The notes below the pieces were generated by a model. That model did not search any database and had not been told where the DNA came from. It saw only the letters and a program-made list of their open reading frames with translations. Below, one piece after another: positions 7,376 through 40,574 of a DNA stretch of 42,293 bases (positions within the stretch are counted from its first letter, which is position 1; each line of letters begins with the position of its first letter). This stretch comes from Thermoanaerobaculia bacterium (lineage in GTDB: Bacteria > Acidobacteriota > Thermoanaerobaculia > Multivoradales > JAHEKO01), in the NCBI GenBank assembly GCA_945787575.1, contig CALZKB010000033.1, positions 1-42,293 on the forward strand, read 5' to 3'. The translations under genes and the position numbers were made by a program.

Positions 7376-7393
7376 CGTTCTCCGTAGTTCGGG

Positions 7394-15546: not shown

Positions 15547-15576
15547 GATCGGATCTCGGCTCGCCTCGCGGTCCGA

Positions 15577-15583
15577 TACTGTA
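15577..15583. promoter_or_regulatory. candidate bidirectional -10 element
   Basis: TACTGTA reads TACTGT on the plus strand and TACAGT on the minus strand, between the divergent M20 gene (start 15546) and GT-C gene (start 15718). It could serve either. If the minus-strand promoter is used, the ATG at 15633 cannot be the M20 start. Confidence 0.3.
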
Positions 15584-15717
15584 GCAGCCCGTGGCGGTAG
15601 CGCCGGGGGCGAGGAGAGACCGGTGCGACTCATCGACGGCGAACGACAGAGCAGACCAGACTTGCCTTTCGGCCGCCGACCGCGAAGCTCCTGGCGACGG
15701 CCAGACGGAGCCTCGGC

Positions 15718-17292
15718 ATGACCGCGGCGGCCCGCCGATCGGCTGCCGCGGCCGGCAGGCGAGAGACTCTCGTTCCCGCCTTGCTCGCCGCGGTGGGCTG
15801 TGTCGCCTACGTCGTCACCGCGTATCGCCTCGTGGGCGACTTCGGCCTCCCCCTCGACGACGGCTATATCCATCTTCAGTTCGCCCGCAACCTCGCCGCG
15901 GGGCATGGACTCTCGTACGAGAGCGGCCGACTGGTGGCCGGTTCGACGGCGCCGCTGTGGACCGCCCTTCTCGCGCTGCTGGGCTTTCTGCCCGGCTCGC
16001 CGGTGCTGTGGGCTCAAGGTCTCGGAGCCGCGCTCTTCGCGTTGGCGATCGCGCCGGTCGTCGGTCTCGCCGAGGATCTCGGCGCCGGCCGGGGGCTCGC
16101 GGCCTTTGCGGGGTTGATGACGGCGACGACCGGCCCCTTGGTCTGGGCCGCCGTGTCCGGACTCGAGATTCCGCTCTTCGTCTTGCTCAGCGTGTTCGGC
16201 GTCCGGCGTCACCTGAGAGATCGCCAGCAGTCGAGCGGCATCGCCACTTCGCTGCCGATTCTGGCGTTGGCGGCGTTGGCGCGTCCAGAGGGCGCCCTGC
16301 TGCTCGGCCTCGCGACGTTCGACCGCTGGCTCGCGCACGACCGCCGGCCGCGCGCCACATGGCGCTCGCTCTGGCCGGGGGCCGCGGTCGCGGCACTCGT
16401 CATCGTGCCGGTCGTCCTGTTCAACTCGGGGATCTCCGGCTCGCCGTTGCCGACGACCTTCGCCGCGAAAGGTGCGGGCTGGCATCGCGCGACGCCCGAT
16501 CTGAAGTATCTCCACACCGTCTTCGGCATTCTCTTTCGCTCCCAGCCCTACCTGACGTGGCTGGCGGCCGCTGGGGTGGTGGGTCTGTTCGTTCCGAGGG
16601 AGCGGGCGCAGGCTCACGGCTTCCTGCCCGCCGCCTGGTGCGTCGGCTTGCCGATCGCCTATTCGATCATCGGTTCGACCGAGGCGCCGCTGGTCGGCAA
16701 CTTCGGCCGCTACTTCTACCCGCTCTTCCCCTTCGTCAGGCCGAACCTCGCGAGCCCTCCGGCGCTCGACGCCCTGCTCGGCAGGAATCCGACCCTCCCC
16801 GCCAGGGTGCTGATCGCCGCCTTGGCGCTTGTCATGTCGATCCCGTCGCTCGGGCATCTCGTCGATCTGGCCGGTCGATTCAGCCAGAACGTGCGCAATG
16901 TCCAAGACGGCGACGTGGCGGCGGCCCGTTGGCTGGCCGCCCGACTGCCGCCGGAGGCGATCCTCGCGGTCAACGACGTCGGAGCGCTCAAGTTCATGCT
17001 TCCCGAGCATCGAGTGCTCGATCTGGCGGGCATCGTCACACCGGAGCTCGCCGTGTACACTCGGGTCGCGCTCGCCGCGGGGAGACCTCGAGGAGACGGA
17101 GTCCGAGCCTACCTCGCGCAAGCGAGGCCCGACTACCTCGTCATCTTCCCGCGGTGGTTCCCGATCCTGTTAGCCAACGAGCCTCGCTATCGACCGGTCA
17201 AGGAGTTCGTCGTGCCCGACAACGTAACCCTCGGTGGAGATCGGGTCGTCGTCTTCGAGACTCCGTGGACCCGCGGGCGGTTGGCGCCGTGA
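15718..17292 (+). CDS. GT-C-type polytopic glycosyltransferase, AftB-like signature
   Basis: 524 residues with about ten hydrophobic helices. The first loop after helix 1 carries the GT-C acidic pair in LDDGYIHLQFARNL (Asp47, Asp48), followed by AGHGLSYESG and GSTAPLWTALLA (75-86). This run of motifs is typical of polyprenyl-phosphate-sugar-dependent transferases related to mycobacterial AftB. LARPEGALL follows in mid-protein. A C-terminal soluble domain (from about 400) has the pattern ILAVNDVGALKF. It should move a sugar from a lipid-phosphate carrier onto an acceptor on the outer face of the inner membrane; donor and acceptor are unknown. The stop overlaps the start of the next gene (GTGA), so it is co-translated with a DegT aminotransferase. 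Confidence 0.82.
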   Translation: MTAAARRSAAAAGRRETLVPALLAAVGCVAYVVTAYRLVGDFGLPLDDGYIHLQFARNLAAGHGLSYESGRLVAGSTAPLWTALLALLGFLPGSPVLWAQGLGAALFALAIAPVVGLAEDLGAGRGLAAFAGLMTATTGPLVWAAVSGLEIPLFVLLSVFGVRRHLRDRQQSSGIATSLPILALAALARPEGALLLGLATFDRWLAHDRRPRATWRSLWPGAAVAALVIVPVVLFNSGISGSPLPTTFAAKGAGWHRATPDLKYLHTVFGILFRSQPYLTWLAAAGVVGLFVPRERAQAHGFLPAAWCVGLPIAYSIIGSTEAPLVGNFGRYFYPLFPFVRPNLASPPALDALLGRNPTLPARVLIAALALVMSIPSLGHLVDLAGRFSQNVRNVQDGDVAAARWLAARLPPEAILAVNDVGALKFMLPEHRVLDLAGIVTPELAVYTRVALAAGRPRGDGVRAYLAQARPDYLVIFPRWFPILLANEPRYRPVKEFVVPDNVTLGGDRVVVFETPWTRGRLAP

Positions 17293-18410
17293 GCGAGCGG
17301 CTCACGGTTCCCGCGTTCGATCTCGCACGCGCCGCCCGCCGAATCGAAGGGCCGCTGGCCGACCGTTGGGCTCGCCTCCTGGAGCGCACCGCATTCGTCG
17401 GCGGAGAAGAAGTCCAAGAGTTCGAGGAAGCCTTCGCGTCGTTTCTCGAAGTCCGGGCGTGCGTCGGAGTCGCCAACGGCACCGACGCCCTCGTGCTGGC
17501 GCTCGAGGCGCTCGGGGTCGGCCCTGGAGACGAGGTGATCGTCCCGAGCTTCACCTTCATCGCGACCGCCGCGACCGTTGCCTGGCTGGGCGCAGTCCCG
17601 GTATTCGCCGACGTCGATCCGGCGACGCTGAACCTCGACGTCACCGACGCGGCGCGCAGGGTCACCCCGAAGACCGTCGGCGTCGTCGGTGTCCACCTCT
17701 ACGGCTGCCCGTTCGACGTGCGGGCGTCGCTCGAGCTGTGTGCCGAGCACGACCTGTGGCTCGTCGAGGACTCGGCGCAGGCCCACGGGGCGCGGTTCGA
17801 GAGTCGGCGGGTCGGCGGATTCGGCCGGCTGGCCACCTGGAGCTTCTATCCGTCGAAGAACCTCGGCTGTTTCGGTGACGGTGGCGCCGTGACCACCGAC
17901 GATCCGGAGCTCGCCGCCCGAGTTCGGCTGCTCGCCAACCACGGCGCGACAGGTCGCTACCGACACGAGCGGGTCGGGCTCAACAGTCGGCTCGACGCTC
18001 TCCAAGCGGCCGTGCTCAACTGTCGACTCCCGCTGCTCGACGAGGACAACGCCACCCGTCGGCGGATCGCCGACCGCTACCGTTCCGCTCTCGCCGGCGT
18101 GGGTGGGATCGACGCCCTCGCCGAGCCGGTCGACGTCGAGAGCGTCGTGCATCAGTTCACGGTGCGGAGCGAGCGCCGGGATGCGCTGCAGGCGTCGCTC
18201 GCGGAGCGAGGGGTCGGTTCGGCGGTTCACTATCCGACGCCGCTGCACCTCCAGCCGGCATTCGCCGGGCGCGGCGAGCCACCGGCGCTGCCCGCGGCCG
18301 AGGCCGCCGCTCGCGAAGTGCTGTGCCTGCCGGTGTTCCCAGAGCTCAGCGACGCCGAGATCGACGTGGTGATCTCAGCGCTCGTCCACTTCGCCGGCAC
18401 TGGCGAGTAG
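17289..18410 (+). CDS. DegT/DnrJ/EryC1 (StrS) family sugar aminotransferase
   Basis: 373 residues from a GTG overlapping the previous stop. It is a PLP fold-type I enzyme of the nucleotide-sugar aminotransferase class: the cofactor loop GVANGTDALVLAL (60-72), VPSFTFIATA (85-94), the acidic EDSAQAHGA (160-168) that contacts the pyridine nitrogen, and Lys190 in SFYPSKNLGCFGDGGA, which forms the Schiff base. The late HYPTPLHLQ motif is typical of FdtB/DesV-like members that act on 3- or 4-keto sugars. It should transfer an amino group from glutamate to a keto nucleotide sugar. Its 3' end overlaps the convergent gene by 36 bases. Regiospecificity cannot be read from the sequence. Confidence 0.9.
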   Translation: MSERLTVPAFDLARAARRIEGPLADRWARLLERTAFVGGEEVQEFEEAFASFLEVRACVGVANGTDALVLALEALGVGPGDEVIVPSFTFIATAATVAWLGAVPVFADVDPATLNLDVTDAARRVTPKTVGVVGVHLYGCPFDVRASLELCAEHDLWLVEDSAQAHGARFESRRVGGFGRLATWSFYPSKNLGCFGDGGAVTTDDPELAARVRLLANHGATGRYRHERVGLNSRLDALQAAVLNCRLPLLDEDNATRRRIADRYRSALAGVGGIDALAEPVDVESVVHQFTVRSERRDALQASLAERGVGSAVHYPTPLHLQPAFAGRGEPPALPAAEAAAREVLCLPVFPELSDAEIDVVISALVHFAGTGE

Positions 18411-21461: not shown

Positions 21462-22355
21462 ATGCCTGCCGCGACCTCTCCCGAGCCCCAGACGGTCGAC
21501 CCACGCGCCTACTCGAACGCACTCGAGCGCCTGGACAATGGGGTTTGGAGCTCCGGAACGGGCGTCGAGCTGTCCTATCCCGAGGACGGCAATGAGCAGT
21601 GTCTGGCAGTCGAGGAGGGGTCGTTCTGGTTCCTGCATCGCAACGCCGTGATCGTCGATACCCTCCATCGGCATCCACCGCCGGGCCCGCTCTTCGATGT
21701 CGGTGCCGGCAACGGCTTTGTGTCGATGGCGATCCACGAGGCCGGTCTACCGGTGGTGGTGATCGAGCCCGGCCCCAGAGGCTCCGCCAATGCCAGGGCC
21801 CGGGGACTCGACCCGGTGATTCAAGCTTCGCTGGAGGGTGCCGGCTTCGCACCGGGCTCACTGCCTGCGATCGCGTTCTTCGACGTGGTGGAGCACGTCG
21901 AAGACGACCTTGGACTACTGACCCTGGCGACCGCTCTGCTCGAGCCCGGAGGGAGGACCTATCTCACCGTGCCCGCCCACCGCTGGCTGTGGTCCGAGGA
22001 CGACGAGCGAGCGGGCCACTTTCGCCGCTACGACCGGCAGAGTCTGACTCGGCTGTTGGCCAAAGCGGGCCTGACGGTCGAGTGGGTCTCGCACTTCTTC
22101 GTGCCGTTGCCGCCGCCGATCCTGCTCTCGCGAGTATGGCTGGCGCGGTTCAGGCAGGAGGGGTGGAGCGCGACTCGAGCGGTGGCTCAGCACGATGTCC
22201 GATCGAGTCGGCTGTCGCCTCTCTTGGCTTGGGCGCTCGCCCTCGAGCGCCGGTGGCTCGATCGCGACCGCGCTCTGCCGTTCGGTTCCAGCCTGATCGC
22301 GGTCGCCCGTCGAAGCGGAGGCGAGGCGGCGGGGAATCGCCCGAATGTCCGGTGA
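21462..22355 (+). CDS. class I SAM-dependent methyltransferase
   Basis: 297 residues. A Rossmann methyltransferase fold is shown by FDVGAGNGFVSMAI (motif I, about 78-91), VVVIEPGP (motif II) and IAFFDVVEHVEDD (motif IV, about 137-149). This is the UbiE/Coq5-like layout common in small-molecule and sugar methyltransferases. A WLWSEDDERAGHFRRYD segment (about 184-200) is typical of a polysaccharide-cluster subgroup. A hydrophobic patch, FVPLPPPILLSRVWLA, near residue 215 may bind membrane. The next methyltransferase gene overlaps by 11 bases, so the two are likely made together. The substrate is unknown. Confidence 0.85.
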   Translation: MPAATSPEPQTVDPRAYSNALERLDNGVWSSGTGVELSYPEDGNEQCLAVEEGSFWFLHRNAVIVDTLHRHPPPGPLFDVGAGNGFVSMAIHEAGLPVVVIEPGPRGSANARARGLDPVIQASLEGAGFAPGSLPAIAFFDVVEHVEDDLGLLTLATALLEPGGRTYLTVPAHRWLWSEDDERAGHFRRYDRQSLTRLLAKAGLTVEWVSHFFVPLPPPILLSRVWLARFRQEGWSATRAVAQHDVRSSRLSPLLAWALALERRWLDRDRALPFGSSLIAVARRSGGEAAGNRPNVR

Positions 22356-23007
22356 TGCCGGCCGCGCCCACTCGGATGCGGGCCTGAAGCGGTTGTTGCT
22401 TCTGCCGGCGATCTACAGCGGGCTTCAGCGCTTGCTCGGCGCCGAGCGCTCGCGGGCTGTCTTCAGCCGCGACTACATCGCCGCGCAGCCGGGAGACTCC
22501 GTTCTCGACCTCGGCTGTGGCGCCGGGGATATCCTCCCCCACCTGCCAGAGGGAGTGCGCTACACGGGGATCGACATCAACCCCTCCTACATCGAGAGTG
22601 CCGCCGCTCGATTCGGCGCCAGGGGTCACTTTTTGGTCGGCGACGTTGCCGAGCTCGACCCGGTCAGTGTCGGAGGGCCGTTCGATCGCGTCCTGATGGT
22701 GGCGCTCTTGCATCATCTGGACGGCGCCGAAGCCGAGAGCCTACTCGCGAGCGCGGCGCGACTGCTTTCGCCTGGAGGGTCGGTCGTGACCTTTGACTGT
22801 GTCCTCGTTGAGCGTCAGCCTCGTATGGCCCGATTCCTGATCGAGCGGGACCGTGGGCGGCGGGTTCGGACCCCGGAGGGCTACCGAGCGGTCCTCGGCC
22901 GTGAGTTCGAAAAGGTCGAAGACGAGGTCCGACACGATCTCCTGCGGGTGCCCTACACCCACTACATCGCGCGCGCTTCGCGGCCGCGTCTTCGACGAGG
23001 CTCCTAG
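22345..23007 (+). CDS. class I SAM-dependent methyltransferase
   Basis: 220 residues. Motif I is VLDLGCGAGDILPHL (53-67), then YTGIDINPSYI (motif II), GDVAEL and DRVLMVALLHHLD (motif IV). The C-terminal part (VRTPEGYRAVL and RVPYTHYIARA) resembles small ubiquinone/menaquinone-type methyltransferases. It begins within the end of the previous methyltransferase and ends in a 4-base overlap with the convergent membrane gene. Tandem methyltransferases suggest two methylations on one glycolipid or glycan; this is inference. Confidence 0.85.
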   Translation: MSGDAGRAHSDAGLKRLLLLPAIYSGLQRLLGAERSRAVFSRDYIAAQPGDSVLDLGCGAGDILPHLPEGVRYTGIDINPSYIESAAARFGARGHFLVGDVAELDPVSVGGPFDRVLMVALLHHLDGAEAESLLASAARLLSPGGSVVTFDCVLVERQPRMARFLIERDRGRRVRTPEGYRAVLGREFEKVEDEVRHDLLRVPYTHYIARASRPRLRRGS

Positions 23008-24716
23008 TCGCTGACGAAGACGTCGCCACCGGGCAGCAACGGCAGGTCGCTCGGCAGGCGATCGAGAGTCGGTCCGATCCAGGCGATGACGGCGCCGGAA
23101 TTCGGCAAAGCGATCGAATGCTCCCCGCGTTCGAGGCTCACGGTCGTTCCCGAGGGAACTTCGGAGCCGTCGATGGCGATCGCCTCGCCGCCCGGCGACA
23201 GGACGACGTAGCGCCCGCTCCGATGCACGCGGTGGCTCTCGGCGAGCGGCCCACCGAGTACATAGAGGTTGCGGCTGATGGCCGTGTAGCGCTCGCCCAT
23301 GAAGCTCCGGTCGGCTCGGCCGAGCCAGCCCCAACGGTAGTTGGTGATCAGCACCGGCGGCGCCTCGGCCGCCATCAGCTCACGAAAGGAGGTTCGCTCT
23401 CCGAGTCGGTAGGAAGGCATGAACAGCGAGTGGAGCATCCAATCGCGGCCTGGCGGCCTCCGCGTGAGCACCAGGCCGGCGGCGTCGAGGACCGGATCTT
23501 CGGGCGACGTGAGTGCCTCGGCAGCCTCGATATGAGCGCGTTGTGCCGAGCCACTCACGCGGCCGATGTGGCCTTCGCTGGTGTTGTAGATGAAGCTGCC
23601 GATGCAGGAGAGCGCCGCGATCACGGCTAGCGCCCAGCGCGCTCCGCGATCGGCGAGGCGCCATAACGAGCCGAACCCGTCGACGGCGGCGAGGAAGAGG
23701 AACGGAATGAGATGAACCAGGTTGTAGGTGTAGGGCACCGGGTTGAGAAGCAGCACGACGAGCATCAGCACTAGCCAGACCGCCGTCACGATCGACGGCC
23801 CCTCGCCGCTCCACCCTTTCCGGCGCGGCTCCCAGGCGAGCCGCACGATCGATCCCGCCGCGAGTGCGGTCAAGTGGGGAACGGAGGAGAGCAGCTCCAG
23901 CAAGCGGCCCCATGGCGAGAACCGGCTCGCGGCGGCGCCCGAGCGGCCGAGCTGGGTCATCTGCTGGATGAAGTCGTCGCCGATGCCGCCGACGGCGAGG
24001 AGACCCATGCCGCCGCCAATTCCCGCCGCGATTCCCGCGACCGTCCAGCCGGCGGCCGCCAACCATCTCGGGCGGGCGCGGCCCCAATACGCCGCCGCCG
24101 CGATCAGCACCAGCCCCGCCGGCCAGACCAACAACGCCTTGAAGGAATTCATCTGCATCCAACCGGCGAGCAGGCCGGCGAGGAAGAACGCGCCGCTGCC
24201 GGCGGACCCACGCGCGGCTCGCTGGGCGAGCGCAAAGAGGCCGAGCGAGCCGGCGAGCATCAACACGTCGTGGCGAATCTCGAAGCCGTGACGCCAGAAC
24301 GGCTCGACCAGGGTCGCGGCCACCAGAGTGGCACTCACGGCCAACCAGCCGCGCGTGCGCGGAGCGAAGAGAGCGATCAGAACCAGGTCGAGGATGAAGA
24401 GTGGCAGAAAGAGCGCCCGCATCTTGAGCAGGATCGTCCAGCTGTCTCCGCCGGCGCCGGCGACCCACGACAAGGGGACGACGAACGGGGAGTAGTAATT
24501 GAGATAGTCCGGAAGGTCGTGGATGCCGAGCAAGGCGGCGTTGTAGGCGACCTGGATCTCGTCGACGTGAAAGTAGCGGTCGAGAGCGAGGGGGATGAGC
24601 TGGTTCGAGACCAGCAACGTCCAGAACGCCAGCAGGATGAGGGCGAGCACCAGCTCCCTGCGGCCTCGGGCCGGGGTCGATCCGCCATTCTGCGGCTGGG
24701 GCTTCGAAACCGTCAT
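23004..24716 (-). CDS. GT-C-type polytopic membrane glycosyltransferase-like protein
   Basis: 570 residues from the ATG at 24716 (an in-frame start at 24758 adds 14 basic residues). Helix 1 (about 22-45) is followed by a loop with the acidic signature RYFHVDEIQVAYNAALL, the place and style of the GT-C catalytic Asp-Glu, then NYYSPFVVPLSW. FWRHGFEIRHDVLML lies near helix 4. About ten helices precede a soluble C-terminal domain (from about 400), which ends in a small beta-sandwich-like part. It probably transfers a sugar from a lipid carrier in the periplasm. It is divergent from the GT2 gene at 24827, which could make such a carrier-linked sugar. Confidence 0.8.
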   Translation of the reverse strand: MTVSKPQPQNGGSTPARGRRELVLALILLAFWTLLVSNQLIPLALDRYFHVDEIQVAYNAALLGIHDLPDYLNYYSPFVVPLSWVAGAGGDSWTILLKMRALFLPLFILDLVLIALFAPRTRGWLAVSATLVAATLVEPFWRHGFEIRHDVLMLAGSLGLFALAQRAARGSAGSGAFFLAGLLAGWMQMNSFKALLVWPAGLVLIAAAAYWGRARPRWLAAAGWTVAGIAAGIGGGMGLLAVGGIGDDFIQQMTQLGRSGAAASRFSPWGRLLELLSSVPHLTALAAGSIVRLAWEPRRKGWSGEGPSIVTAVWLVLMLVVLLLNPVPYTYNLVHLIPFLFLAAVDGFGSLWRLADRGARWALAVIAALSCIGSFIYNTSEGHIGRVSGSAQRAHIEAAEALTSPEDPVLDAAGLVLTRRPPGRDWMLHSLFMPSYRLGERTSFRELMAAEAPPVLITNYRWGWLGRADRSFMGERYTAISRNLYVLGGPLAESHRVHRSGRYVVLSPGGEAIAIDGSEVPSGTTVSLERGEHSIALPNSGAVIAWIGPTLDRLPSDLPLLPGGDVFVSD

Positions 24717-24772
24717 CCGTCTTCTGTACCCGCGCCGCCGGCCGTTCGCCCTTGCCACCGACTCCGGAAGGC

Positions 24773-24778
24773 TATTAT
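24773..24778 (+). promoter_or_regulatory. candidate promoter of the amino-sugar operon
   Basis: TATTAT, with TTGCCA 15 bases upstream (24752-24757), lies about 49 bases before the ATG at 24827. The leader would hold the GGAGG ribosome site. The spacing is shorter than the usual 17 bases. Confidence 0.35.
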
Positions 24779-24826
24779 GACCGTGCCCGAGAGGTGGTTG
24801 CGCGCCGAACGGGATGGAGGCAGGTG

Positions 24827-25792
24827 ATGAGGGAAAGGGCCGTGGAACTCTCGATCGTAACGACGCTCTACCGCTCCGGCCGCTATATCGAGGAGTTCTA
24901 TCGGCGCGCGGTCGCCGCGGCCGAGAAGCTCGGACGGTCGTTCGAGCTGGTGTTCGTCAACGACGGGTCGCCCGACGAATCGCTGGCGCTGGCGCTCGCC
25001 GTCGCCCGCTCGGACCCGCGGGTGACGGTCGTCGACCTCTCTCGGAATTTCGGTCATCACATGGCCTTCATGGCAGGGCTCGATCATTCGGCCGGTGAGC
25101 GCATCTTCTTCATCGACGTCGATCTCGAGGAGGAGCCGGAATGGCTGGCCGACTTCGACAGGGAGCTCGATCGGAAGGCGGCCGACATGGTCTACGGATT
25201 CCAGCACGAGCGTGCCGGAGGCTCCTTCCGGCGATGGAGCGGCAAGCTCTTCTACGGTCTCTTTAACCGAGTTTCGGACCAGCCGATCCCTGAGAACCCG
25301 TGCACCGTGCGCCTTCTGAGTCGCCGTTACGCGAACGCCCTACAGGGGCTGCGCGACCGCAATCTGTTCCTTGCCGGCAACTACGCTTGGGTCGGTTTCG
25401 AGCAGGTCGGTATGCCGGTGGTCAAGAAGGTCCGCGCTTCGCGATCGTCGTACGGGTTGATCCACTTGATGCGGCTGTTCGTCAACGCGGTCGTCTCGTT
25501 CTCGGCCGCGCCGCTCAGGACGATCTTCTTCGTCGGTCTGGCGATCTCGAGCCTGTCCGGCCTGCTTGGCTTGATCTTTCTGGTACAGAAGCTCCTCGAT
25601 CCGAGCAAGGTGGCCCTGGGCTGGGCATCCGTGATGGTCTCGATCTGGTTTCTGAGCGGAACGCTGATCTTCATCTGCGGCATCCTCGGCCTCTACATCG
25701 GCGCGATCTTCGCGGAGACCAAGCATCGACCACCCTACGTCGTACGAGCCGTGCACCGGCTGGAAACGACGGAGGAGACGGGCGAGGCATGA
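24827..25792 (+). CDS. GT2 polyprenol-phosphate glycosyltransferase (ArnC/GtrB-like)
   Basis: 321 residues. The start at 24827 has a GGAGG ribosome site 6 bases upstream, so the longer frame from 24752 is rejected. The GT-A domain opens with LSIVTTLYRSG, then FVNDGSPDES (45-52), LSRNFGHHMAFMAGLDHS and the metal site FIDVDLEEEPE (95-105). Two C-terminal membrane helices (about 225-250 and 265-290) follow, the layout of enzymes that load a sugar onto undecaprenyl phosphate on the cytoplasmic face. It is the first of five genes joined by 4-base overlaps. The sugar is unknown; the downstream WecE suggests an amino-dideoxy sugar. Confidence 0.9.
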   Translation: MRERAVELSIVTTLYRSGRYIEEFYRRAVAAAEKLGRSFELVFVNDGSPDESLALALAVARSDPRVTVVDLSRNFGHHMAFMAGLDHSAGERIFFIDVDLEEEPEWLADFDRELDRKAADMVYGFQHERAGGSFRRWSGKLFYGLFNRVSDQPIPENPCTVRLLSRRYANALQGLRDRNLFLAGNYAWVGFEQVGMPVVKKVRASRSSYGLIHLMRLFVNAVVSFSAAPLRTIFFVGLAISSLSGLLGLIFLVQKLLDPSKVALGWASVMVSIWFLSGTLIFICGILGLYIGAIFAETKHRPPYVVRAVHRLETTEETGEA

Positions 25793-26544
25793 GCCACGAT
25801 CCCCACGATCTCGACGGCCAGCGTTCGAGCTACCACGCCGGCTTCCGTTTCTTCGACGAGAATGCCCGTGCGCTCACCTGGTACGCCGAGCGACTCGTCG
25901 GCTGTCTGGCCCGCCGGGATTGCCGCTCGGCACTGAGCCTCGGAATCGGCCAACGGATCGTCGGTGGTCGGCTGATCGAGGCGACGCTCGCGGGGCGGCT
26001 CGAGCGTTACATGATCGTCGAGGGCTCGGCGACGGCTATCGAGGAGCTGCGCGCGGATGCCGTCGATCTCTCCAAGACGGAGTTGGTCGAGTCTTGGTTC
26101 GAGCGTTTCTCCACCGAGGCGCGCTTCGACCTGATCGAAATGGGATTCGTGCTCGAGCACGTCGACGAGCCGAGGGCGATCGTGGAACGTTTTCGAGCCT
26201 TCCTCAACCCTGGGGGCGTCTGCGCGATCGCGGTCCCCAACGCTCGTTCGCTGCACCGGCTGATCGGCTTCGAGGCGGGGCTGCTCGACGACGTCTACCG
26301 CCTGAGCTCCGAGGATCTCGCCCTGGGGCATCAGCGCTACTTCGACCTCGAGAGTCTGAGGTCGCTGGTGACCGCCGCCAAGCTCGACATCGAGGTCGAG
26401 GAGGGGATTCTCATAAAGCCGATCACCAGCGGTCAATTGAAAGCGCTCGACCTCCCTCCCGAGGTCTATCGAGGGCTGTTCGAGGTCGCGGTCGAGCTGC
26501 CGGCGATCTCCAACTCGATCTACATGGAAGCCGTCCGGCCGTGA
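25789..26544 (+). CDS. SAM-dependent methyltransferase-like protein with degenerate motif I
   Basis: 251 residues, starting in an ATGA overlap with the GT2 gene. The fold is recognisable from YMIVEGSATAIEEL (motif II, ending in an acidic residue), FDLIEMGFVLEHVDEP (motif IV region) and LNPGGVCAIAVPNA. Motif I reads ALSLGIGQRIVGG and lacks the usual acidic residue and full glycine pattern. The C-terminal half (LALGHQRYFDLESLRSLV) is like sugar methyltransferases of polysaccharide clusters. It may methylate the operon's sugar, or bind without catalysis. Confidence 0.75.
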   Translation: MSHDPHDLDGQRSSYHAGFRFFDENARALTWYAERLVGCLARRDCRSALSLGIGQRIVGGRLIEATLAGRLERYMIVEGSATAIEELRADAVDLSKTELVESWFERFSTEARFDLIEMGFVLEHVDEPRAIVERFRAFLNPGGVCAIAVPNARSLHRLIGFEAGLLDDVYRLSSEDLALGHQRYFDLESLRSLVTAAKLDIEVEEGILIKPITSGQLKALDLPPEVYRGLFEVAVELPAISNSIYMEAVRP

Positions 26545-28232
26545 CTGCGAGCCCGGCGCGGCGGCCGTCGGCGGTTGCCGTATTGATCCTCTCGGGCGGC
26601 GGCTTTCAGGGCCTCGGGATCGCTCGAGCTCTGGGGGGAGTACCGGACGTGCGGATCGTCCTCGCCGACAACGGAGCCCAGCCGCTGACGGGGCTGTTGG
26701 CCGACGACGTCGTACGCCTCCCCGATCTGGCCGATGTCGAGGCCTTTATGCGAGCGCTGCGAGAGACCTGCCGGCGTCTCGAGGTGCGGCTGATCATGCC
26801 CGCCACCGAGCACGAGCTGGCGATTCTCGCGGGCGCTTCTCCGAGGCTCGAGAGAGAGCTGGGGCTCAAGGTGGCGGTCAGCGCACCCGAGGTCTTCGAG
26901 CGCTTCGGCGACCGCGCCGCTCTGCTCGACGAGCTCGGCCGCCTCGCGGTACCGAGACCGCCGACCGTGAGCTTGGCCTCGGCCGGCGAGGCGGACCTTC
27001 CGCTGCTCGGCAGGCCGCGCCGCTCCAGCTGGGGAGGGCGATCCCACGTCGTCGTCCGGACCGCCGACGAGCTGGCCGCCGCGCGGCGAGATGACCGCGG
27101 CGACCGACTGTGGACCCCGTTTTACGAGGAGTTCGACGAACTGTCGCTCGACTTCGCCATCGGCTTCGATGGCGAGCTGTCCCCGGTGGTCGTGCGCGAG
27201 CGGGTGCGCACCAGCGGGGGTTTCTGCGTAGTGGCCGCCGGCAGGGACGGCGGAGAGGTCGAGGAGTACGCGCGCCGCGTCGCCGCGGAGCTCGCCCGCA
27301 CCGGAGGCCGTGGACTGTTCAATCTGCAGTTCCTCTTGACCTCGGAGGGACCCCTGGCCTCCGATCTGAACCTGCGCTTCGGGACCTCGGGCGTCTTTCC
27401 TCTCGGGGTGGGAGCGAATTTCATGCAGTTCCTGCTCGATTCGGCCACCGGCCGATCGCCCGCAGCACGGCCGGCGACAGGCAGGGGAGTCCGGATGTAC
27501 CGGCCGTTGGTCGAGCGCTTTCTACCCGATGATTCGCTCGCCCTTGACGGCTTGGTGTTCGACCTCGACGACACTCTCCTCGATCAGAAGGCGTGGATCG
27601 TCGGCAAGCTCGAGCTGCTCTGGCAGGCGATGGCCGACGAGCTGCCGCCGCTCGAGATCTTCCGGCGAGCCGGCTGGGAGGCGATCGAGAACGGCGAGCA
27701 GGCGGTGACCCTCGACTCGATGATCTCCAGACTGGGGCTGTCGACGGAGCTGAGAGAGCGGATGATCGACACCTACCGCGCGGCGGCACCGAAGAGCGCA
27801 CCCCTCTACGCCGACGTCCGCGGCGCCCTGGCCGCTCTGCGGGCAAGAGGACTCAAGCTGGCGCTGGTGACCGACAATCCGCCGGAGTCTCAACGTCAGA
27901 AGCTCGAGGCCGCCGGCATCACCTCGGCTCTCGACTGCGTCGTCTTCACCCGCGAGATGGGCGCCGAGAAGCCGGATCCGGCGGGGGTTCGACACGCCGC
28001 CGAGATCCTGGCGATCCCCCCCGCGCGGCTCGGATTGGTGGGGGACCACCCCTTGCGCGACGGTGAGGCAGCGCTCGCGGCGGATCTCGGACGCTTCTTC
28101 TGGATCGAGCGGCCGGGTAGCTTCGCCAGCGTCTCGCCGACCCTCGTGCGCGACCTGCGCCCGGAGCTGTGGGCCGTCACGGTCCGGATTCGCGACCTGC
28201 GAGAGCTCCAGGAGGCGGTGAGACCGCGATGA
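26541..28232 (+). CDS. fusion of an ATP-grasp ligase and a HAD-family phosphatase
   Basis: 563 residues from a GTG that overlaps the previous stop. Residues 1 to about 320 form a carbamoyl-phosphate-synthase-like ATP-grasp unit: the N-terminal Rossmann part LILSGGGFQGLGIARAL, then LIMPATEHEL, RFGDRAALLDELGRLAVPRPPT and the metal-loop segment SDLNLRFGTSG (275-284), where the usual Glu is Asp. Residues about 335-540 are a HAD hydrolase: nucleophile DLDDT (341-345), motif II LVTDNPP, motif III Lys in GAEKPDP and motif IV LVGDHPLRDG. ATP-grasp enzymes activate a carboxylate as an acyl phosphate and join it to an amine; HAD enzymes remove phosphate. In this operon they could aminoacylate or acylate an amino sugar. 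The fusion is complete and in frame. Confidence 0.85.
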   Translation: MTASPARRPSAVAVLILSGGGFQGLGIARALGGVPDVRIVLADNGAQPLTGLLADDVVRLPDLADVEAFMRALRETCRRLEVRLIMPATEHELAILAGASPRLERELGLKVAVSAPEVFERFGDRAALLDELGRLAVPRPPTVSLASAGEADLPLLGRPRRSSWGGRSHVVVRTADELAAARRDDRGDRLWTPFYEEFDELSLDFAIGFDGELSPVVVRERVRTSGGFCVVAAGRDGGEVEEYARRVAAELARTGGRGLFNLQFLLTSEGPLASDLNLRFGTSGVFPLGVGANFMQFLLDSATGRSPAARPATGRGVRMYRPLVERFLPDDSLALDGLVFDLDDTLLDQKAWIVGKLELLWQAMADELPPLEIFRRAGWEAIENGEQAVTLDSMISRLGLSTELRERMIDTYRAAAPKSAPLYADVRGALAALRARGLKLALVTDNPPESQRQKLEAAGITSALDCVVFTREMGAEKPDPAGVRHAAEILAIPPARLGLVGDHPLRDGEAALAADLGRFFWIERPGSFASVSPTLVRDLRPELWAVTVRIRDLRELQEAVRPR

Positions 28233-28945
28233 AGTGCGTCATTCTGCAGCCGTCCTACATTCCGTGGCGGGGCTACTTCCACCAGATCCGCGAGGCCGAC
28301 ATCTTCGTCTTCTACGACGACGTCCAGTTCGACAAGCACGGGTGGCGCAACCGCAACCGGATCCCCACTCGATCGGGTCCACTCTGGTTGACCGTGCCGG
28401 TGCTTGCGTCCGATGCCCCCGCGACCGGTCTGCCGATTCACGAGGTGCAAATCAACTGGGACCGGGCCTGGAACCGGAAGCAGTGGCGCACGATCGAGCA
28501 GAACTACTCGAAGGCGCCTTTCTTCGCTCGCTATGCGCCGGAGCTCGAGAGGTTCTTCGAGGGGCGACCGGAGCTGCTCGTCGATCTGACGATCCCGCTG
28601 ACCGAGTGGGCGGCCGCCGAACTCGGCGTGTCCGACACGCGATATCTTCGTTCGTCTCAGCTAGGCATTCCCGGGCACCGGACCGAGCGCCTGCTCGCAA
28701 TCCTGGATCATCTAGAGGCCGACAGTTACCTATCGGGTCCGTCGGCGCGCGATTACCTCGACGAGGCGGCTTTCGTCGACGCGGGGATCGAGCTGACCTA
28801 CATGGACTACGACTATCCTCCCTACGAGCAGCTGCACCAGCCGTTCGAGCCGCAGGTCTCGATCATCGACCTGCTTTTTCTGAAGGGCCCGGAGGCCCCT
28901 CGCTGGATTTGGGGCGTCGAATCCGGCGCCCAGGCCGATCGATGA
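28229..28945 (+). CDS. WbqC-like family protein
   Basis: 238 residues, starting in an ATGA overlap. The N-terminus MKCVILQPSYIPWRGYFHQI, then DIFVFYDDVQFDKHGWRNRNRI, is the hallmark of the WbqC family found in O-antigen and glycan clusters. Further family features are WRTIEQNYSKAPFF and the C-terminal LSIIDLLF-like segment (VSIIDLLFLKGPEA). It is soluble, with no signal peptide. WbqC proteins are thought to help modify the amino group of amino sugars, but to my knowledge no reaction is firmly established. Its position between an ATP-grasp protein and WecE fits a step that uses the WecE amino product. Confidence 0.92.
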   Translation: MKCVILQPSYIPWRGYFHQIREADIFVFYDDVQFDKHGWRNRNRIPTRSGPLWLTVPVLASDAPATGLPIHEVQINWDRAWNRKQWRTIEQNYSKAPFFARYAPELERFFEGRPELLVDLTIPLTEWAAAELGVSDTRYLRSSQLGIPGHRTERLLAILDHLEADSYLSGPSARDYLDEAAFVDAGIELTYMDYDYPPYEQLHQPFEPQVSIIDLLFLKGPEAPRWIWGVESGAQADR

Positions 28946-30093
28946 CCGACGGACGAGAGCTCGCACCGATCCCGTTCAACCGCCCCTGTCTCGTCGGCAG
29001 GGAGCTCGAGCACGTGGCCGACTCGTTCCGGCGCATGCAGATCTCCGGTGATGGGTATTTCACCAAGAGGTGCCAGGAGCAGCTGTCCAGCTTCCTCGGT
29101 GGCGCCAGTGTGCTGATGACTTCCTCCTGCACCCACGCCCTCGAGATGACGGCGTTACTGCTCGACTTGGGACCGGGCGACGAGGTGATCCTGCCCGCGT
29201 TCACGTTCGTCTCGACAGCCAACGCCTACGCGCTGAGGGGGGCGACACCGATCTTCTGCGACAGTCGGCCGGACACGCTGAATCTCGACGAGCGGTTGCT
29301 GCCCGATCTCGTGAGCGAGCGGACCCGGGCAATCGTGCCCGTTCATTACGCGGGGGTGGCGTGCGCGATGGACGAGATCTGTGAGCTCGCGGACGAAAGT
29401 GGGATCTCGGTCATCGAAGACAACGCTCACGGTCTATTGGGGCACTATCGAGGCCGGCCTCTGGGCACCCTTGGGCGCCTCGCGACCCTGAGCTTTCACG
29501 AAACCAAGAACTTCACCTCCGGAGAAGGCGGGGCGGTGGTGCTCAACGATCCGTCGTTGATCGACCGGGCGGAGATCCTGCGGGAGAAGGGCACCGATCG
29601 TAGCCGGTTCTTTCGAGGCGAAGTCGACAAGTACACCTGGGTCGACGTCGGTTCGAGCTACCTGGCGTCGGACCTGCTCGCCGCCCTCCTGCTGGGGCAG
29701 CTCGAGGCTGCCGAGAAAGTCCAGGCCCGGCGCGAGTGGATCTGGAGCTCCTATCGCACCGCACTCGCGGACTGGGCGCCCGACCACGGAGTGACCTTGC
29801 CGTTCGTTCCCGAAGACTGCCAGACTTCTCACCATCTTTTTCACCTGCTATTGCCCGATGTGGCGAGCCGCGATCGATTCATCGCTCATCTCAGCAGTCG
29901 CGGCATCCAGTCGGTCTTCCATTACGTACCGCTGAACTCCTCGCCGATGGGAGAGCGCTTCGGCGCTCGTGCCGGCGACTGCCCGGTAGCGGAAGACGTC
30001 GCTGCGAGATTAGCGAGACTTCCGCTCTTCTACGATCTCGACGAATTCGATCTCGAGCGCATCGCCGGTGCCGTGTGCTCTTTCCGACCCTGA
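28942..30093 (+). CDS. wecE: dTDP-4-amino-4,6-dideoxygalactose transaminase (WecE/RffA)
   Basis: 383 residues, starting in an ATGA overlap with wbqC. It follows the WecE pattern closely: GDGYFTKRCQ (37-46), TSSCTHALEM (60-69), LPAFTFVSTANAYALRGA, VPVHYAGVACAMDEI, Lys189 in SFHETKNFTSGEGGA, and REKGTDRSRFFRGEVDKYTW in two pieces. The family converts dTDP-4-keto-6-deoxy-glucose plus glutamate to dTDP-4-amino-4,6-dideoxygalactose (Fuc4N). The active-site stretch IEDNAHG has Asn where most members have Ala. The 3' end overlaps the convergent HTTM gene by 64 bases. No rmlA/rmlB lies in the window, so the dTDP-keto sugar must come from elsewhere. Confidence 0.92.
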   Translation: MTDGRELAPIPFNRPCLVGRELEHVADSFRRMQISGDGYFTKRCQEQLSSFLGGASVLMTSSCTHALEMTALLLDLGPGDEVILPAFTFVSTANAYALRGATPIFCDSRPDTLNLDERLLPDLVSERTRAIVPVHYAGVACAMDEICELADESGISVIEDNAHGLLGHYRGRPLGTLGRLATLSFHETKNFTSGEGGAVVLNDPSLIDRAEILREKGTDRSRFFRGEVDKYTWVDVGSSYLASDLLAALLLGQLEAAEKVQARREWIWSSYRTALADWAPDHGVTLPFVPEDCQTSHHLFHLLLPDVASRDRFIAHLSSRGIQSVFHYVPLNSSPMGERFGARAGDCPVAEDVAARLARLPLFYDLDEFDLERIAGAVCSFRP

Positions 30094-31427
30094 ACCTGCG
30101 GGGGACGGCAATCGGCGAGTCCAGCAAGCCTGGCGGCCCCGTCGCGGACGTCGATCGTTCCGGCGAGACGCCAAGGCGTAGCCGCTTCTCGATCATCGAG
30201 CTCAAAGTCGAGCGCCAGCTCGCTGAGGGTGACGTTCTTGCAGTAGACATCGACCACACCCGGTTCGAGATCGTGTGAGGCGAACCAACCCCGTAGGTAG
30301 CGCAGCTGGGCACCGGGTCCTTCCCGGGTGCCGCGTGCGAAGAAGCCGAGCAGCTTCCAGTATCGGCCGGAGACCTCCGGGTAACCGTCCTCGGAGAAGG
30401 AGGGTATCGAGATCTCTCGCCCGCCGACGCGGGTGGTGAATCGCAGAATCGGCCCCGAGAGGCGGAAGTGCCAGTCGAGAAACAGAGGATGGCGGGTGGT
30501 TCCGAGGATCGCGCTGAGGGGATTGGTTAGGCCGATCGGCTGGGCGGCGAGCCACACCTGGCTAGCGACCAGACCGGAGATCAGAAGCGCTGAACCGTAG
30601 GTCGCCAAGCGAGAATGCCGGCGAGGCACGCTCCCGACCCTCGCGCGGCCGTTGACCGGCAGGTAGAGCAGGAGCAGGGTTGCAAAGGCGAGGCCAAACA
30701 GCGGCAGCGGGAAGAACACCGCCGATCCGACGTGGAGCGCCAGTCCGAGCGCGAGCCAGAGCGATCGCGTGCCGCGAACCACGATCAGCGGAAAGAGCAG
30801 CTCGTAGACGAGGGCCGAATAGGTGAGCGTCTTCATCAGCACCGCCGACTCGGCCCAGTCCGGCAGCATCCCGGTCGAGAAGTGCGGCAAGGCGGCACCC
30901 AGCCAGAAGGCCGAGCCGCCGAGCCAGATCTCCGACTGGAGCTTGAACCAGACCGAATCCCAGTAGGCGAGGGTGATGGCGACGGTGAGGAGCGCGACGA
31001 ACCATCCGGGCGCTCGATCGGCCGCCACCGACCGGCGGCGCCCGTCGACGGTCCACCGCTGGGGAAGGGGCGCGAAGACGAAGAGGAACTCGAAGTGGAT
31101 GAAGATCTTGTCGAGGTGATAGGGATCCTGGCAGAGGCCGAAGAGCAACCGCAACAGGCAGGCGTTGAGAACGAGAGCGACCCGGGTGACAACGCCGACG
31201 AGGACCGCCGAGGTCAACAGGAACGCGGCGGCGAACAGCGAGTGCACGAGGACCGGTGGATAACCCTCGAACGCCACCGACCTCCAGCCGTAGAGCCTCG
31301 CGAGCGCCACCAGCAGCACACCGTGAAAGAGCACACGAACGAGGCTCAGGCTGGTCAGCGAAACGTCGGCATCGAGGAGGCGCCGGAAGTCGTAGCGCGC
31401 GCGAGGAGCGGGGCGAGAGTCTGGCAT
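30030..31427 (-). CDS. HTTM (vitamin-K-dependent carboxylase-like) membrane protein
   Basis: 465 residues with about seven hydrophobic helices in residues 30-290. SLVRVLFHGVLLVALARLYGW at the start, HLDKIFIHFEFLFVFAPL, the helix-loop VWFKLQSEIWLGGSAFW and SALVYELLFPLIV match the HTTM domain, shared with vitamin-K-dependent gamma-carboxylase. The C-terminal soluble part (about 330-465) has the pattern YWKLLGFFARG. The catalytic activity of bacterial HTTM proteins is mostly unknown. The last about 20 codons are antisense to the end of wecE. The ATG at 31427 has no ribosome site; a TAAGCT hexamer lies 12 bases upstream. Confidence 0.82.
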   Translation of the reverse strand: MPDSRPAPRARYDFRRLLDADVSLTSLSLVRVLFHGVLLVALARLYGWRSVAFEGYPPVLVHSLFAAAFLLTSAVLVGVVTRVALVLNACLLRLLFGLCQDPYHLDKIFIHFEFLFVFAPLPQRWTVDGRRRSVAADRAPGWFVALLTVAITLAYWDSVWFKLQSEIWLGGSAFWLGAALPHFSTGMLPDWAESAVLMKTLTYSALVYELLFPLIVVRGTRSLWLALGLALHVGSAVFFPLPLFGLAFATLLLLYLPVNGRARVGSVPRRHSRLATYGSALLISGLVASQVWLAAQPIGLTNPLSAILGTTRHPLFLDWHFRLSGPILRFTTRVGGREISIPSFSEDGYPEVSGRYWKLLGFFARGTREGPGAQLRYLRGWFASHDLEPGVVDVYCKNVTLSELALDFELDDREAATPWRLAGTIDVRDGAARLAGLADCRPPQVQGRKEHTAPAMRSRSNSSRS

Positions 31428-31445: not shown

Positions 31446-31509
31446 GTCGCTGCTCCTCACCTCGCTCCGTGAGCTCGGTTGTCGTTGGGGCCTCGCCTGC
31501 GGGTCCGTC

Positions 31510-31527
31510 GTCGGGCTTGCGCCCGAC
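31510..31527. repeat. short perfect hairpin in a divergent intergenic region
   Basis: GTCGGGC and GCCCGAC flank the tetraloop TTGC. No T-run follows on either strand. It lies about 80 bases upstream of the start at 31607; role unknown. Confidence 0.35.
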
Positions 31528-31593
31528 AAGGGGCGCCTTGAATCCGTCACAGAAGCGGCTCGCCGGTCTCACGGCCGCGCCGGAAGCCTTCGA

Positions 31594-31599
31594 TATGAT
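31594..31599 (+). promoter_or_regulatory. candidate -10 element, leaderless start of the LtaS-like gene
   Basis: TATGAT stands 7 bases before the ATG at 31607. It contains two earlier in-frame ATGs (31595, 31598), which would not be transcribed if it is a -10 element. Confidence 0.45.
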
Positions 31600-31606
31600 G
31601 CCGCGC

Positions 31607-33508
31607 ATGACGAGTCGGCCCGGTCCGTCGCGCATCTCGAGACCGTGGCCGGTCGTGGCGATCCACGGCGTGTTTCTGCTCGCCCTCCTCGTCTTCTTCC
31701 GAATTCACAAGGTCGTCTTCTCCGAGCTCTCACCCGCGCCCCTCGCCTGGTTCGCGCTCTTCCTTCCCGATCTCGGGTTCGTGCTGATCTTCGAGTGCTT
31801 CTGGCTCGTCGTCAGCCGCGGCCGCGCTTCGCGCTGGTGGCGAACATCGCTCCACTCCAGCCACGCCGTCGTCTACCTGTTCGTGGTCCTGGCCCATCAC
31901 TTCTTCCTCAACACCGGCTACCGGATCCCCTTCGATCTGGCGGCCTACGCGGTCGCCAACCTGCGCATGCTGCGCGACCTGCTCATGGTCACGGGAGGCG
32001 GCGACCTCTGGCGCGATCTCGCCGTGGCGGCGGTCGCCTTCGGCCTGGCGGTCGCCCTGCCGCGGATTCCGCGGTTGGCCGCGCGACCCGCTCCGCACAG
32101 GTTCCTTTTCCCTGCGGCTATCGGGATCGGGTTGGTGCTATTGGCGGCGTCACCGCTCGAGGAACCGCAGCTGCGCAACATCTCGCGCAACGACCTCCTC
32201 GCTTTCGCCGCGAGCGCCATCGACGCTTCGCAGCCGGGCGCGAGCGTAGGTCCGCTCATGACCCCGCCCGATGGCCTCTACCGCGCTCCCCGTCTCGAAC
32301 CTCGACGGACCGGCAGCCGGCCCAACATCGTCCTCATCCTCCTGGAATCGACCGGAGCGCAGGCGGTGGGGACGGACTTCTCTGCCGGGCTGACGCCGAA
32401 CCTGGAGGCGATCGCGGCCGAAAGCGTGATCGTCGAGCAGGCCTACGGCACCGTATCCCATACCTCGAAGGCGCTCGTCGGGCTGCTGTGTGGAATGACC
32501 CCCCGGCTCGACCTCGAGATCGTCGAGTCGCTCGAGGGCAACCTGCCGATCCCCTGCCTGCCGACGCTCCTCGGCAACTTGGGATACCGCACGGCGTTCC
32601 TGCAGACGGCGCTCGCCAGCTTCGAGAACCGCCCCGGCCTGGTGGCTAACCTCGGCTTTCAGTTCGGCGCCTATCAAGAGACCCTCGAGCGGCCGCCGTT
32701 TCAGAAGATGGGTTACTTCGGCCTCGACGAGTTCGCGATGATCGAGCCGGCGCTGCGGTGGACGGCGAGCGATCGCCCGGAGCCGTTCTTCCTCACCCTA
32801 TTGACGATCTCCCCTCATCATCCCTACGAGACCCCGGGCGTGAACCCGGGGGACGCGGAGAACGAGGAGCTCTATCGGGACACACTGCGCCACCAGGATC
32901 GCTTCGTGGGCGAGCTCTACCGGGGCCTCGAAGCCGCGGGCGCGCTCGAGAACACCCTGCTCGTCATCATCGGGGATCACGGCGAGGCGTTTGGCGAGCA
33001 CCAGCTCTTCGAGCATGACGCCGTGCCCTACGAAGAAGTGGTCTGGACCCCCTGGCTGCTTCACGGTTCGGCGCTCGTGGGAGAGCCGCGCCGGATCGGC
33101 GGATTGCGAAGCCACCTCGACTTCCTGCCGACCGTCCTCGAGCTCCTGGGTGGCGACTGGGAAGGGCTGCTTCCGGGCAAGAGCTTGCTCGCCACGGCGG
33201 GCCACGAGCGGGTGATCACCTCCTGCTGGTACCGTAACCACTGCCTCGGAATGCGCCGCGGAGACCGCAAGGCGGTCTACAAGTTCGGGCACGGACCGAC
33301 CGAGCTGTTCGACCTGGAGCGCGACCCGGCGGAGCGCCGCGACCTCGCCGCGACCCTGACCGCTCAGCAGTACGAGAGCCTGGAAGCGGAGATGCTCGCC
33401 TTCAAGCTGTCGATCGACGCCTTCTGGGCTCGCTACCCGGTCGCCGACGGTCCCCCCAGCTGGTGGGAAGAGGAGGCCGAGCTCAGCGGCGGCGGCGCGA
33501 CCCCGTGA
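31607..33508 (+). CDS. LtaS/sulfatase-fold membrane phosphoglycerol-transferase-like protein
   Basis: 633 residues. Five N-terminal helices (about 15-190) are followed by a periplasmic alkaline-phosphatase-fold domain. Active-site motifs are NIVLILLESTGAQAVG (metal Glu), the nucleophile Thr in GTVSHTSKALVG, HHPYETPG, and IIGDHGEAFGEHQLFEH (Asp-His metal pair). A C-terminal DLERDPAERRDL motif is typical of sulfatases. Members with this membrane layout move phosphoglycerol or phosphoethanolamine from phospholipid onto glycans or lipids. The long frame from 31469 is not supported, because 46 upstream residues are non-conserved-looking and a -10 element lies at 31594. The acceptor is unknown. Confidence 0.88.
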   Translation: MTSRPGPSRISRPWPVVAIHGVFLLALLVFFRIHKVVFSELSPAPLAWFALFLPDLGFVLIFECFWLVVSRGRASRWWRTSLHSSHAVVYLFVVLAHHFFLNTGYRIPFDLAAYAVANLRMLRDLLMVTGGGDLWRDLAVAAVAFGLAVALPRIPRLAARPAPHRFLFPAAIGIGLVLLAASPLEEPQLRNISRNDLLAFAASAIDASQPGASVGPLMTPPDGLYRAPRLEPRRTGSRPNIVLILLESTGAQAVGTDFSAGLTPNLEAIAAESVIVEQAYGTVSHTSKALVGLLCGMTPRLDLEIVESLEGNLPIPCLPTLLGNLGYRTAFLQTALASFENRPGLVANLGFQFGAYQETLERPPFQKMGYFGLDEFAMIEPALRWTASDRPEPFFLTLLTISPHHPYETPGVNPGDAENEELYRDTLRHQDRFVGELYRGLEAAGALENTLLVIIGDHGEAFGEHQLFEHDAVPYEEVVWTPWLLHGSALVGEPRRIGGLRSHLDFLPTVLELLGGDWEGLLPGKSLLATAGHERVITSCWYRNHCLGMRRGDRKAVYKFGHGPTELFDLERDPAERRDLAATLTAQQYESLEAEMLAFKLSIDAFWARYPVADGPPSWWEEEAELSGGGATP

Positions 33509-38508: not shown

Positions 38509-38544
38509 CATCGCCGCCGACGGATCGTGGCGCAGGGAAGACCA

Positions 38545-40080: not shown

Positions 40081-40574
40081 TCGTCAAGCACTCCGACGGC
40101 GAGATGAAGGTCAAGATCGAGCGTCGCGGGGGTGAGTTCAACGTCCAGATCGGTGATCAGTCCTACGTCATCCTCTCGGCCGAAGCGATGAGCGGCGTGC
40201 GGAGCCTGCTGGTCGCGGGAGAGCAGTTCGAGGTGGCGGTGCGAAGTCTCGGTGAGGATCGCTACGAGGTGACGAGCTCCGGCGGCGTCGAGACGGTGCA
40301 GGTGCAGGATCCTCTGACCGCACTGGCGGAGGCCGCTCACGCCGGCGAGGAGGACGGTCAACGGCGGCGAGTCGACGCCAACATGCCGGGCAAAGTCACG
40401 GCGGTGATGGTCGAAGAAGGCGCCGAGGTGACCGCTGGCCAGGGAATCGTCGTGCTCGAAGCGATGAAGATGGAGAACGAGATTCAAGCCGAGCGTGACG
40501 GCGTCATCAGCAAGATCCACGTCGAGGCCGGGCAGGCGGTCGAAGGCGGCGACCCGCTCTTCGAGCTCGAATAG
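40071..40574 (+). CDS. biotin carboxyl carrier subunit with an N-terminal BT-like domain
   Basis: 167 residues. The C-terminal biotinyl domain (about 98-167) carries the biotinylated Lys in LEAMKMENEI and starts at NMPGKVTAVMV. The N-terminal about 90 residues are beta-rich (VKIERRGGEFNVQIG, YVILSAEA, RYEVTSSGG) and resemble the linker barrel of propionyl/methylcrotonyl-CoA carboxylase alpha chains. It has no Ala/Pro-rich N-terminal linker of AccB type. The start overlaps the biotin carboxylase gene by 10 bases. It is the partner of that subunit. Confidence 0.93.
   Translation: MELIVKHSDGEMKVKIERRGGEFNVQIGDQSYVILSAEAMSGVRSLLVAGEQFEVAVRSLGEDRYEVTSSGGVETVQVQDPLTALAEAAHAGEEDGQRRRVDANMPGKVTAVMVEEGAEVTAGQGIVVLEAMKMENEIQAERDGVISKIHVEAGQAVEGGDPLFELE

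Follow-up and report, generated by a model that had tools for sequence, protein, structure and literature searches.

A candidate Arn-like amino-sugar operon with an apparently exchangeable N-acylation step in a member of the Thermoanaerobaculia

What is made by an operon that joins a glycosyltransferase, a methyltransferase, a fusion of ATP-grasp and HAD domains, a WbqC family protein and a WecE-type aminotransferase? The question was raised by positions 24827-30093 of a 42,293-nucleotide stretch from an uncultured Thermoanaerobaculia bacterium of the phylum Acidobacteriota (contig CALZKB010000033.1 of assembly GCA_945787575.1, our contig C33; the whole stretch is referred to here as the window). 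The window belongs to a draft genome of 5.6 Mb in 484 contigs, 97.5% complete. The operon is read here as an amino-sugar module of the Arn kind in which the N-acylation step can be exchanged, and a probability of about one half is attached to this reading.

The five genes were arranged head to tail on the (+) strand and each of the four junctions was a 4-base stop/start overlap, read directly as ATGA at 25789-25792, GTGA at 26541-26544, and ATGA at 28229-28232 and 28942-28945. Pfam and NCBIfam scans agreed with the gene labels: a family 2 glycosyltransferase (GT2; 24827-25792), a class I, S-adenosylmethionine-dependent methyltransferase (25789-26544; Methyltransf_23, 45 bits), an ATP-grasp::HAD fusion with a GTG start, of which the ATP-grasp part was the weaker (26541-28232), WbqC (28229-28945) and WecE (28942-30093). 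The block GT2-methyltransferase-(ATP-grasp::HAD) recurred in another family of the same phylum (locus L047), with WbqC directly upstream of GT2, which argues that the arrangement is not due to chance. WecE lay outside that operon; a WecE-like gene was found ~21 kb off on the same contig (L189). An earlier note on this DNA had suggested conservation of the five-gene order as a check.

The aminotransferase (DegT Pfam, 294 bits) scored above both curated WecE cut-offs (NF008687, 522.6 bits against 375; TIGR02379, 478.8 bits against 434.85), so that its WecE label is correct and a WecE/RffA-type role in 4-amino-4,6-dideoxyhexose synthesis is predicted. Its closest structures were dTDP-4-amino-4,6-dideoxygalactose transaminases (E 8e-125) and the SFHETKN segment was conserved. 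The 4-keto substrate could be supplied by RmlB, encoded in the same genome (471 bits, cut-off 365). GT2 (PF00535, 84 bits) was of the ArnC/PgfS/sll0501-like, polyprenyl-phosphate type: it matched the structures of sll0501 (E 1.6e-49) and ArnC (E 1e-33) along its full length and displayed two C-terminal hydrophobic segments in the hydropathy profile (residues 221-257 and 262-299). Its scores against PgfS (180.6 bits) and ArnC (125.5 bits) stayed under the equivalog cut-offs of 500 and 529; it is an equivalog of neither, and its sugar may therefore differ.

Upstream of the operon, beyond a gap that likely holds a shared promoter region (24717-24826), a divergent gene (23007-24716, (-) strand) matched no Pfam or NCBIfam family. 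The top 48 structural matches of its AlphaFold2 model (predicted local distance difference test, pLDDT, 70.9) were all GT-C enzymes or GT-C-containing complexes, with Z scores of 21.8 over 427 residues for ArnT and 23.8 for the catalytic subunit of oligosaccharyltransferase. A GT-C fold of the ArnT/oligosaccharyltransferase kind is well supported for the modelled protein, which is predicted to be a membrane glycosyltransferase using a lipid-linked sugar. A single family of the phylum yielded five homologues, of which three adjoined GT2 and a WecE-family gene (L185, L186 and L109). The residues D52-E53 were invariant among six homologues. On these points the earlier note is supported: it had claimed a 4-base ATGA/GTGA overlap at every junction, a WecE-type aminotransferase and a polyprenyl-phosphate GT2 with two C-terminal helices, all as found here, and its guess of a GT-C transferase for the divergent gene agrees with the fold and with the setting of the homologues in L185, L186 and L109.

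The acylating gene was the variable part of the module. WbqC loci (numbered with the prefix L) were gathered from 396 genomes of the phylum, 70 of which carried WbqC, and from named genomes and plasmids. Across ~70 such loci the recurring core was composed of GT2, WbqC and a WecE-like gene, beside which the acylating gene changed. Its slot was filled by a formyltransferase in a Chloroflexi metagenome-assembled genome (L009), in an Acidobacteria one (L010) and, without GT2, in L011; by a GNAT in L046 and an acetyltransferase in Azospirillum (L165); by a hexapeptide acetyltransferase in L051, which kept the window order GT2-methyltransferase-X-WecE; and by ATP-grasp::HAD in the window and L047. 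This swapping of formyl, acetyl and ATP-grasp genes beside a constant core is the strongest argument for acylation of the amino sugar by the fused protein, and it upholds the N-acylation position in which the protein had been placed beforehand.

Two further loci, L185 and L186, combined WecE, GT-C and GT2, and no WbqC or ATP-grasp gene was detected within 20 kb. Taken literally, these are the clusters that the earlier note had named as speaking against its proposal; we read them as another variant of the module and not as a refutation. In L186 an AMP-binding enzyme (11500-12600; PF00501, 223 bits) followed GT-C and GT2, possibly another acyl-activating occupant of the slot. The methyltransferase of the operon had homologues in WbqC loci L047, L108, L109 and L113 and near WbqC on plasmids of Tateyamaria and Rhizobium. 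A role as an NmbA-like N-methylase was considered for it; its closest PDB matches were two uncharacterised proteins. Between WbqC and the genes for a GNAT and a methyltransferase, L197 (Tateyamaria; 6707-8634) and L198 (Rhizobium CIAT894; 6762-8698) each held two genes in a row, annotated as glycosylase or exo-alpha-sialidase and as hypothetical; a comparable pair in L109 (8755-10685) gave weak GH32 matches.

The fusion itself was encoded in one uninterrupted frame, with ATP-grasp at ~residues 10-320 and HAD at residues 336-530, and is predicted to combine an acid-amine ligase with a phosphatase. The HAD part (HAD_2, 74 bits) displayed all of the motifs FDLDDT, TDN, EKPDP and GDHPLRD. Its catalytic positions were conserved in the fused homologue of L047, which was 39% identical along the full length and passed both PylC-like_N and ATP-grasp_3. 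The ATP-grasp domain was PRK12767-like, no TupA-like ATP-grasp domain being matched in the fused protein, and had Q263, D275 and N277 at the metal-binding positions, with D for the usual E. Adjacent but unfused ATP-grasp and HAD genes were encountered as seven pairs, in L093, L193, L196 and on plasmids of Leisingera, Palleronia, Ensifer and Roseibium (the loci listed for the unfused pair being L064, L093, L193, L196 and L199-L201). The pair of L196 comes from the window's own taxonomic order, and three times the pair was close to a DegT aminotransferase. Given this recurrence, the window gene is most simply explained as a fusion of an existing pair. In L193 the pair was flanked by genes for a PglC-like sugar transferase on one side and a LegC-like aminotransferase on the other; in the bacillosamine pathway, ordered PglC-PglD-PglE, that place is occupied by the acetyltransferase PglD. 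The fused protein may well act on a phosphorylated acid, for which 3-phosphoglycerate is the first candidate; the Campylobacter and Neisseria systems described below lend plausibility to such a reaction.

WbqC (PF08889, 253.5 bits against a gathering cut-off of 21.3) belongs to a family for which a literature search found no published function. Its AlphaFold2 model, built from 40 sequences (pLDDT 93.7), displayed a HUP or class I aminoacyl-tRNA-synthetase-like fold. The top match of the structural aligner was BshC (4wbd; Z 14.2, root-mean-square deviation 3.1, 217 aligned residues), spanning the whole model, followed by class I LysRS (Z 11.3), other synthetases (~8.5), nucleotidyltransferases (7.9) and PanC (6.8). 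Homology to PanC, considered for a motif resemblance, was rejected on a null profile comparison and a Z score far under that of BshC.

The neighbours of WbqC, among them PIG-L deacetylases and DegT aminotransferases, both of which generate free amino groups, pointed in a similar direction. Directly adjoining genes accounted for 17 of the 24 PIG-L matches around WbqC, although this bin made up ~4% of the 8-kb search space, and all 17 were co-directional with it; all six PIG-L genes scanned by Pfam were confirmed. DegT genes adjoining WbqC were likewise co-directional (13/13), and DegT and/or PIG-L lay within 4.5 kb of 50 out of 76 WbqC genes, counts that are not independent since some genomes are related. 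WbqC/PIG-L pairs were spread over about nine families of the phylum and were also present in Mycobacterium branderi and a Vibrio phage. Its fold and gene neighbours give WbqC the look of a ligase attaching acids or amino acids to amino sugars. No sequence homology to BshC was detectable; WbqC may work like BshC and is not taken to be one. It had been taken for a dedicated partner of the ATP-grasp protein. This view did not hold: WbqC recurred with WecE and GT2 where ATP-grasp was absent, so that the two do not form one obligate enzyme, and its fold suggests a ligase of its own.

Some observations on WbqC and BshC stand apart from this argument. In the Vibrio phage V-YDF132 (L166, 5324-6738), a gene annotated as a BshB-type deacetylase overlapped by one base a WbqC-like gene annotated as hypothetical (Pfam WbqC, 67.6 bits), possibly a two-gene cassette for amino-sugar modification. 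True BshC was present in all 40 genomes searched in the window's order (e.g. L139, G000:C37:23433-24407), and bacillithiol-type thiols therefore look universal there. The glycyl-Qui4N of E. coli O121 may be a precedent for WbqC; a query with a Proteus WbqC found no E. coli DNA.

Sequence and fold establish the gene families, their coupling, the GT-C and WbqC folds, the swapping of the slot and the ATP-grasp/HAD pair. On this basis we infer a route for which every substrate, the sequence of the ligations, the site of methylation and the acceptor are proposals. WecE would transaminate a nucleotide-linked (probably dTDP-linked) 4-keto-6-deoxy sugar, made with the help of the RmlB encoded elsewhere, to a 4-amino sugar whose free amine would then be amidated. 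The ATP-grasp domain would couple an acid through an acyl phosphate. This acid would most likely carry a phosphate, as do 3-phosphoglycerate and the phospho-amino acids, which the fused HAD domain would strip off afterwards. WbqC would likewise form an amide with the free amine, as a second enzyme of this kind; in loci that hold both, it would probably attach an amino acid, subsequently capped by the ATP-grasp::HAD product or by a formyl or acetyl group. The methyltransferase would methylate the product, GT2 would link the decorated sugar to polyprenyl phosphate, and the GT-C enzyme would pass it on to an acceptor at the outer face of the membrane. A wider reading is put forward tentatively, at odds clearly below even: WbqC would be a compact, BshC- or class I synthetase-like amide ligase, which adds amino acids or related acids to amino sugars in many bacterial surface-glycan loci. 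Here it might act before ATP-grasp::HAD, which would attach a second unit and dephosphorylate it, so that the lipid-linked 4-amino sugar would bear two residues.

Several results weigh against these proposals. The ATP-grasp part of the window protein scored under its curated cut-offs (PylC-like_N, 23.1 bits against 27; ATPgrasp_Ter, 22 bits, under the Pfam cut-off; PRK12767, 89.4 bits against a curated 390). Both fused members displayed an arginine (GRP) at the position of the nucleotide-binding lysine and an E to D change in DxN, so that activity may be altered. The fused form was found in only two of the 396 phylum genomes, and in one of the 193 genomes in the class of the second genome, a rarity stated with lower confidence because three candidates per genome were scored at a strict threshold, by which the unfused pair in L093 was missed. 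No flippase was identified in the five-gene operon. As to WbqC, Foldseek alone returned no significant match; PF10079, the BshC family, was not matched and profile comparison, including that of N-terminal cores against 150 column-shuffled controls, gave no signal. In 26 of the 76 WbqC loci neither DegT nor PIG-L was detected within 4.5 kb, so that other roles of WbqC may exist. Finally, the HUP fold also serves nucleotidyltransferases.

This last point leads to the alternative that survived best, in which acylation occurs once: ATP-grasp::HAD alone would make the amide, in a PglB2-like manner, and WbqC would perform nucleotidyl transfer, activation or scaffolding. Besides the fold, it draws on the precedent of PglB2 (PMC6959607) and on the recurrence of WbqC beside formyl- and acetyltransferases, by which the amine would be acylated anyway. 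The top structural match of WbqC was nevertheless clearly BshC, along almost the full protein (Z 14.2, with nucleotidyltransferases at ~8), and the close association of WbqC with PIG-L suggests a reaction for which the amine must be free. We regard a single acylation as possible without being probable.

Far less plausible is the form in which the earlier note had cast the step, with ATP-grasp::HAD and WbqC as two halves of one acylation. The two do share an operon in the window and in L047, and WbqC shares locus L093 with an ATP-grasp/HAD pair; yet such pairs were near only three of ~70 WbqC loci, and others occurred in loci without WbqC (L064, L193 and L196). Equally improbable is that ATP-grasp::HAD supplies the methyltransferase or WbqC with a precursor (e.g. 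carbamoyl or acyl phosphate, or a dipeptide) rather than acting on the amino sugar, as the NCBI name of its ATP-grasp part ("carbamoyl phosphate synthase-like") and its residue changes relative to canonical ATP-grasp members might suggest, since the fusion holds the acyltransferase slot in both of its loci and the unfused pair of L193 lies between PglC-like and LegC-like genes. The Arn-like module with an exchangeable N-acylation step is retained as the preferred reading.

Other features of the window are reported for completeness. Two class I methyltransferase genes lay on the (+) strand beyond the GT-C gene: one converging on it (22345-23007; Methyltransf_25, 65 bits), of uncertain membership in the pathway, and one further upstream (21594-22355; Methyltransf_23, 52 bits), whose exact start is not fixed and whose homologues were present in WbqC loci L009, L047 and L049. 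A second DegT aminotransferase (17373-18383, (+) strand, 381 bits) was part of an open reading frame open back to 15591, overlapping an opposite-strand peptidase frame (14131-17121); its true start is probably near 17300. Converging on the operon end, with an overlap of ~60 bases with WecE, a 465-residue membrane-like protein without Pfam or NCBIfam match was encoded at 30033-31427 on the (-) strand. It was followed just past the operon region by an LtaS/phosphoglycerol-transferase-like, sulfatase-domain membrane enzyme (31469-33505, (+) strand), perhaps another surface-glycan modifier. Overlapping genes for a biotin carboxylase and then a biotin carrier protein occupied 38527-40574 of the (+) strand.

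By exchanging formyl, acetyl and ATP-grasp/HAD genes beside a constant core, bacteria would vary the acyl group carried by the nitrogen of their surface amino sugars; in the natural fusion, ligase and phosphatase are combined into a single step. Surface-glycan clusters commonly include WbqC, and its match to the BshC fold together with its pairing with deacetylases and aminotransferases yields a testable ligase prediction.

Among known systems, the plan is closest to that of the Arn pathway (ArnB, ArnA formyltransferase domain, ArnC and ArnT; 4-amino-arabinose on lipid A), which likewise unites in one module an aminotransferase, an N-acylation step, a GT2 that charges undecaprenyl phosphate and a GT-C transferase. 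ArnC and ArnT were among the close structural relatives of the window GT2 and GT-C, and a formyltransferase was present in sister loci L009 and L010. The window differs in displaying WecE for ArnB, ATP-grasp::HAD and WbqC for formyl transfer, and no ArnD in the operon; Pfam and NCBIfam scans found no ArnA-type formyltransferase among the five operon genes. The Fuc4NAc branch of enterobacterial common antigen (WecE, WecD and WecF) shares the WecE-type aminotransferase and, in L046, a GNAT in the position of WecD, whereas the window operon lacks an acetyltransferase and a polyprenyl-phosphate GT2 with GT-C replaces WecF-type transfer.

The acylating domain of PglB2 is an ATP-grasp. In Neisseria it was proposed to place a glyceroyl instead of an acetyl on the 4-amino group (PMC6959607), so that there too the acyl group is changed by exchange of the acylating domain, although PglB2 is fused to a phosphoglycosyltransferase and its sugar is of the UDP-linked, bacillosamine type. 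In the HS:2 capsule of Campylobacter jejuni, ATP-grasp Cj1438C couples a sugar acid with a phosphorylated amine, whose phosphate is then cleaved off by HAD Cj1435 (PMC11800379), likewise an amidoligase with a phosphorylated partner followed by a phosphatase. In Campylobacter, however, the carboxylate belongs to the sugar and the amine to serinol-P or ethanolamine-P, the ATP-grasp is TupA-like and the proteins are separate (PMC11800379). In bacillithiol synthesis, deacetylase BshB precedes cysteine ligase BshC, which was without demonstrated in vitro activity as of 2015; BshB/BshC and, in mycothiol synthesis, MshB/MshC both let a PIG-L-type deacetylase expose the amine of an amino sugar to which a Rossmann-core enzyme adds an amino acid (PMC4360819). 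The fold of WbqC and its adjacency to PIG-L fit this scheme, although WbqC is half the size of BshC. With the Campylobacter and Neisseria systems described (PMC11800379, PMC6959607), the acylation logic is not wholly new and "undescribed", the earlier word for this pathway, was too strong. The overall plan is Arn-like with precedents for the acylation, and its broader value is the prediction for WbqC.

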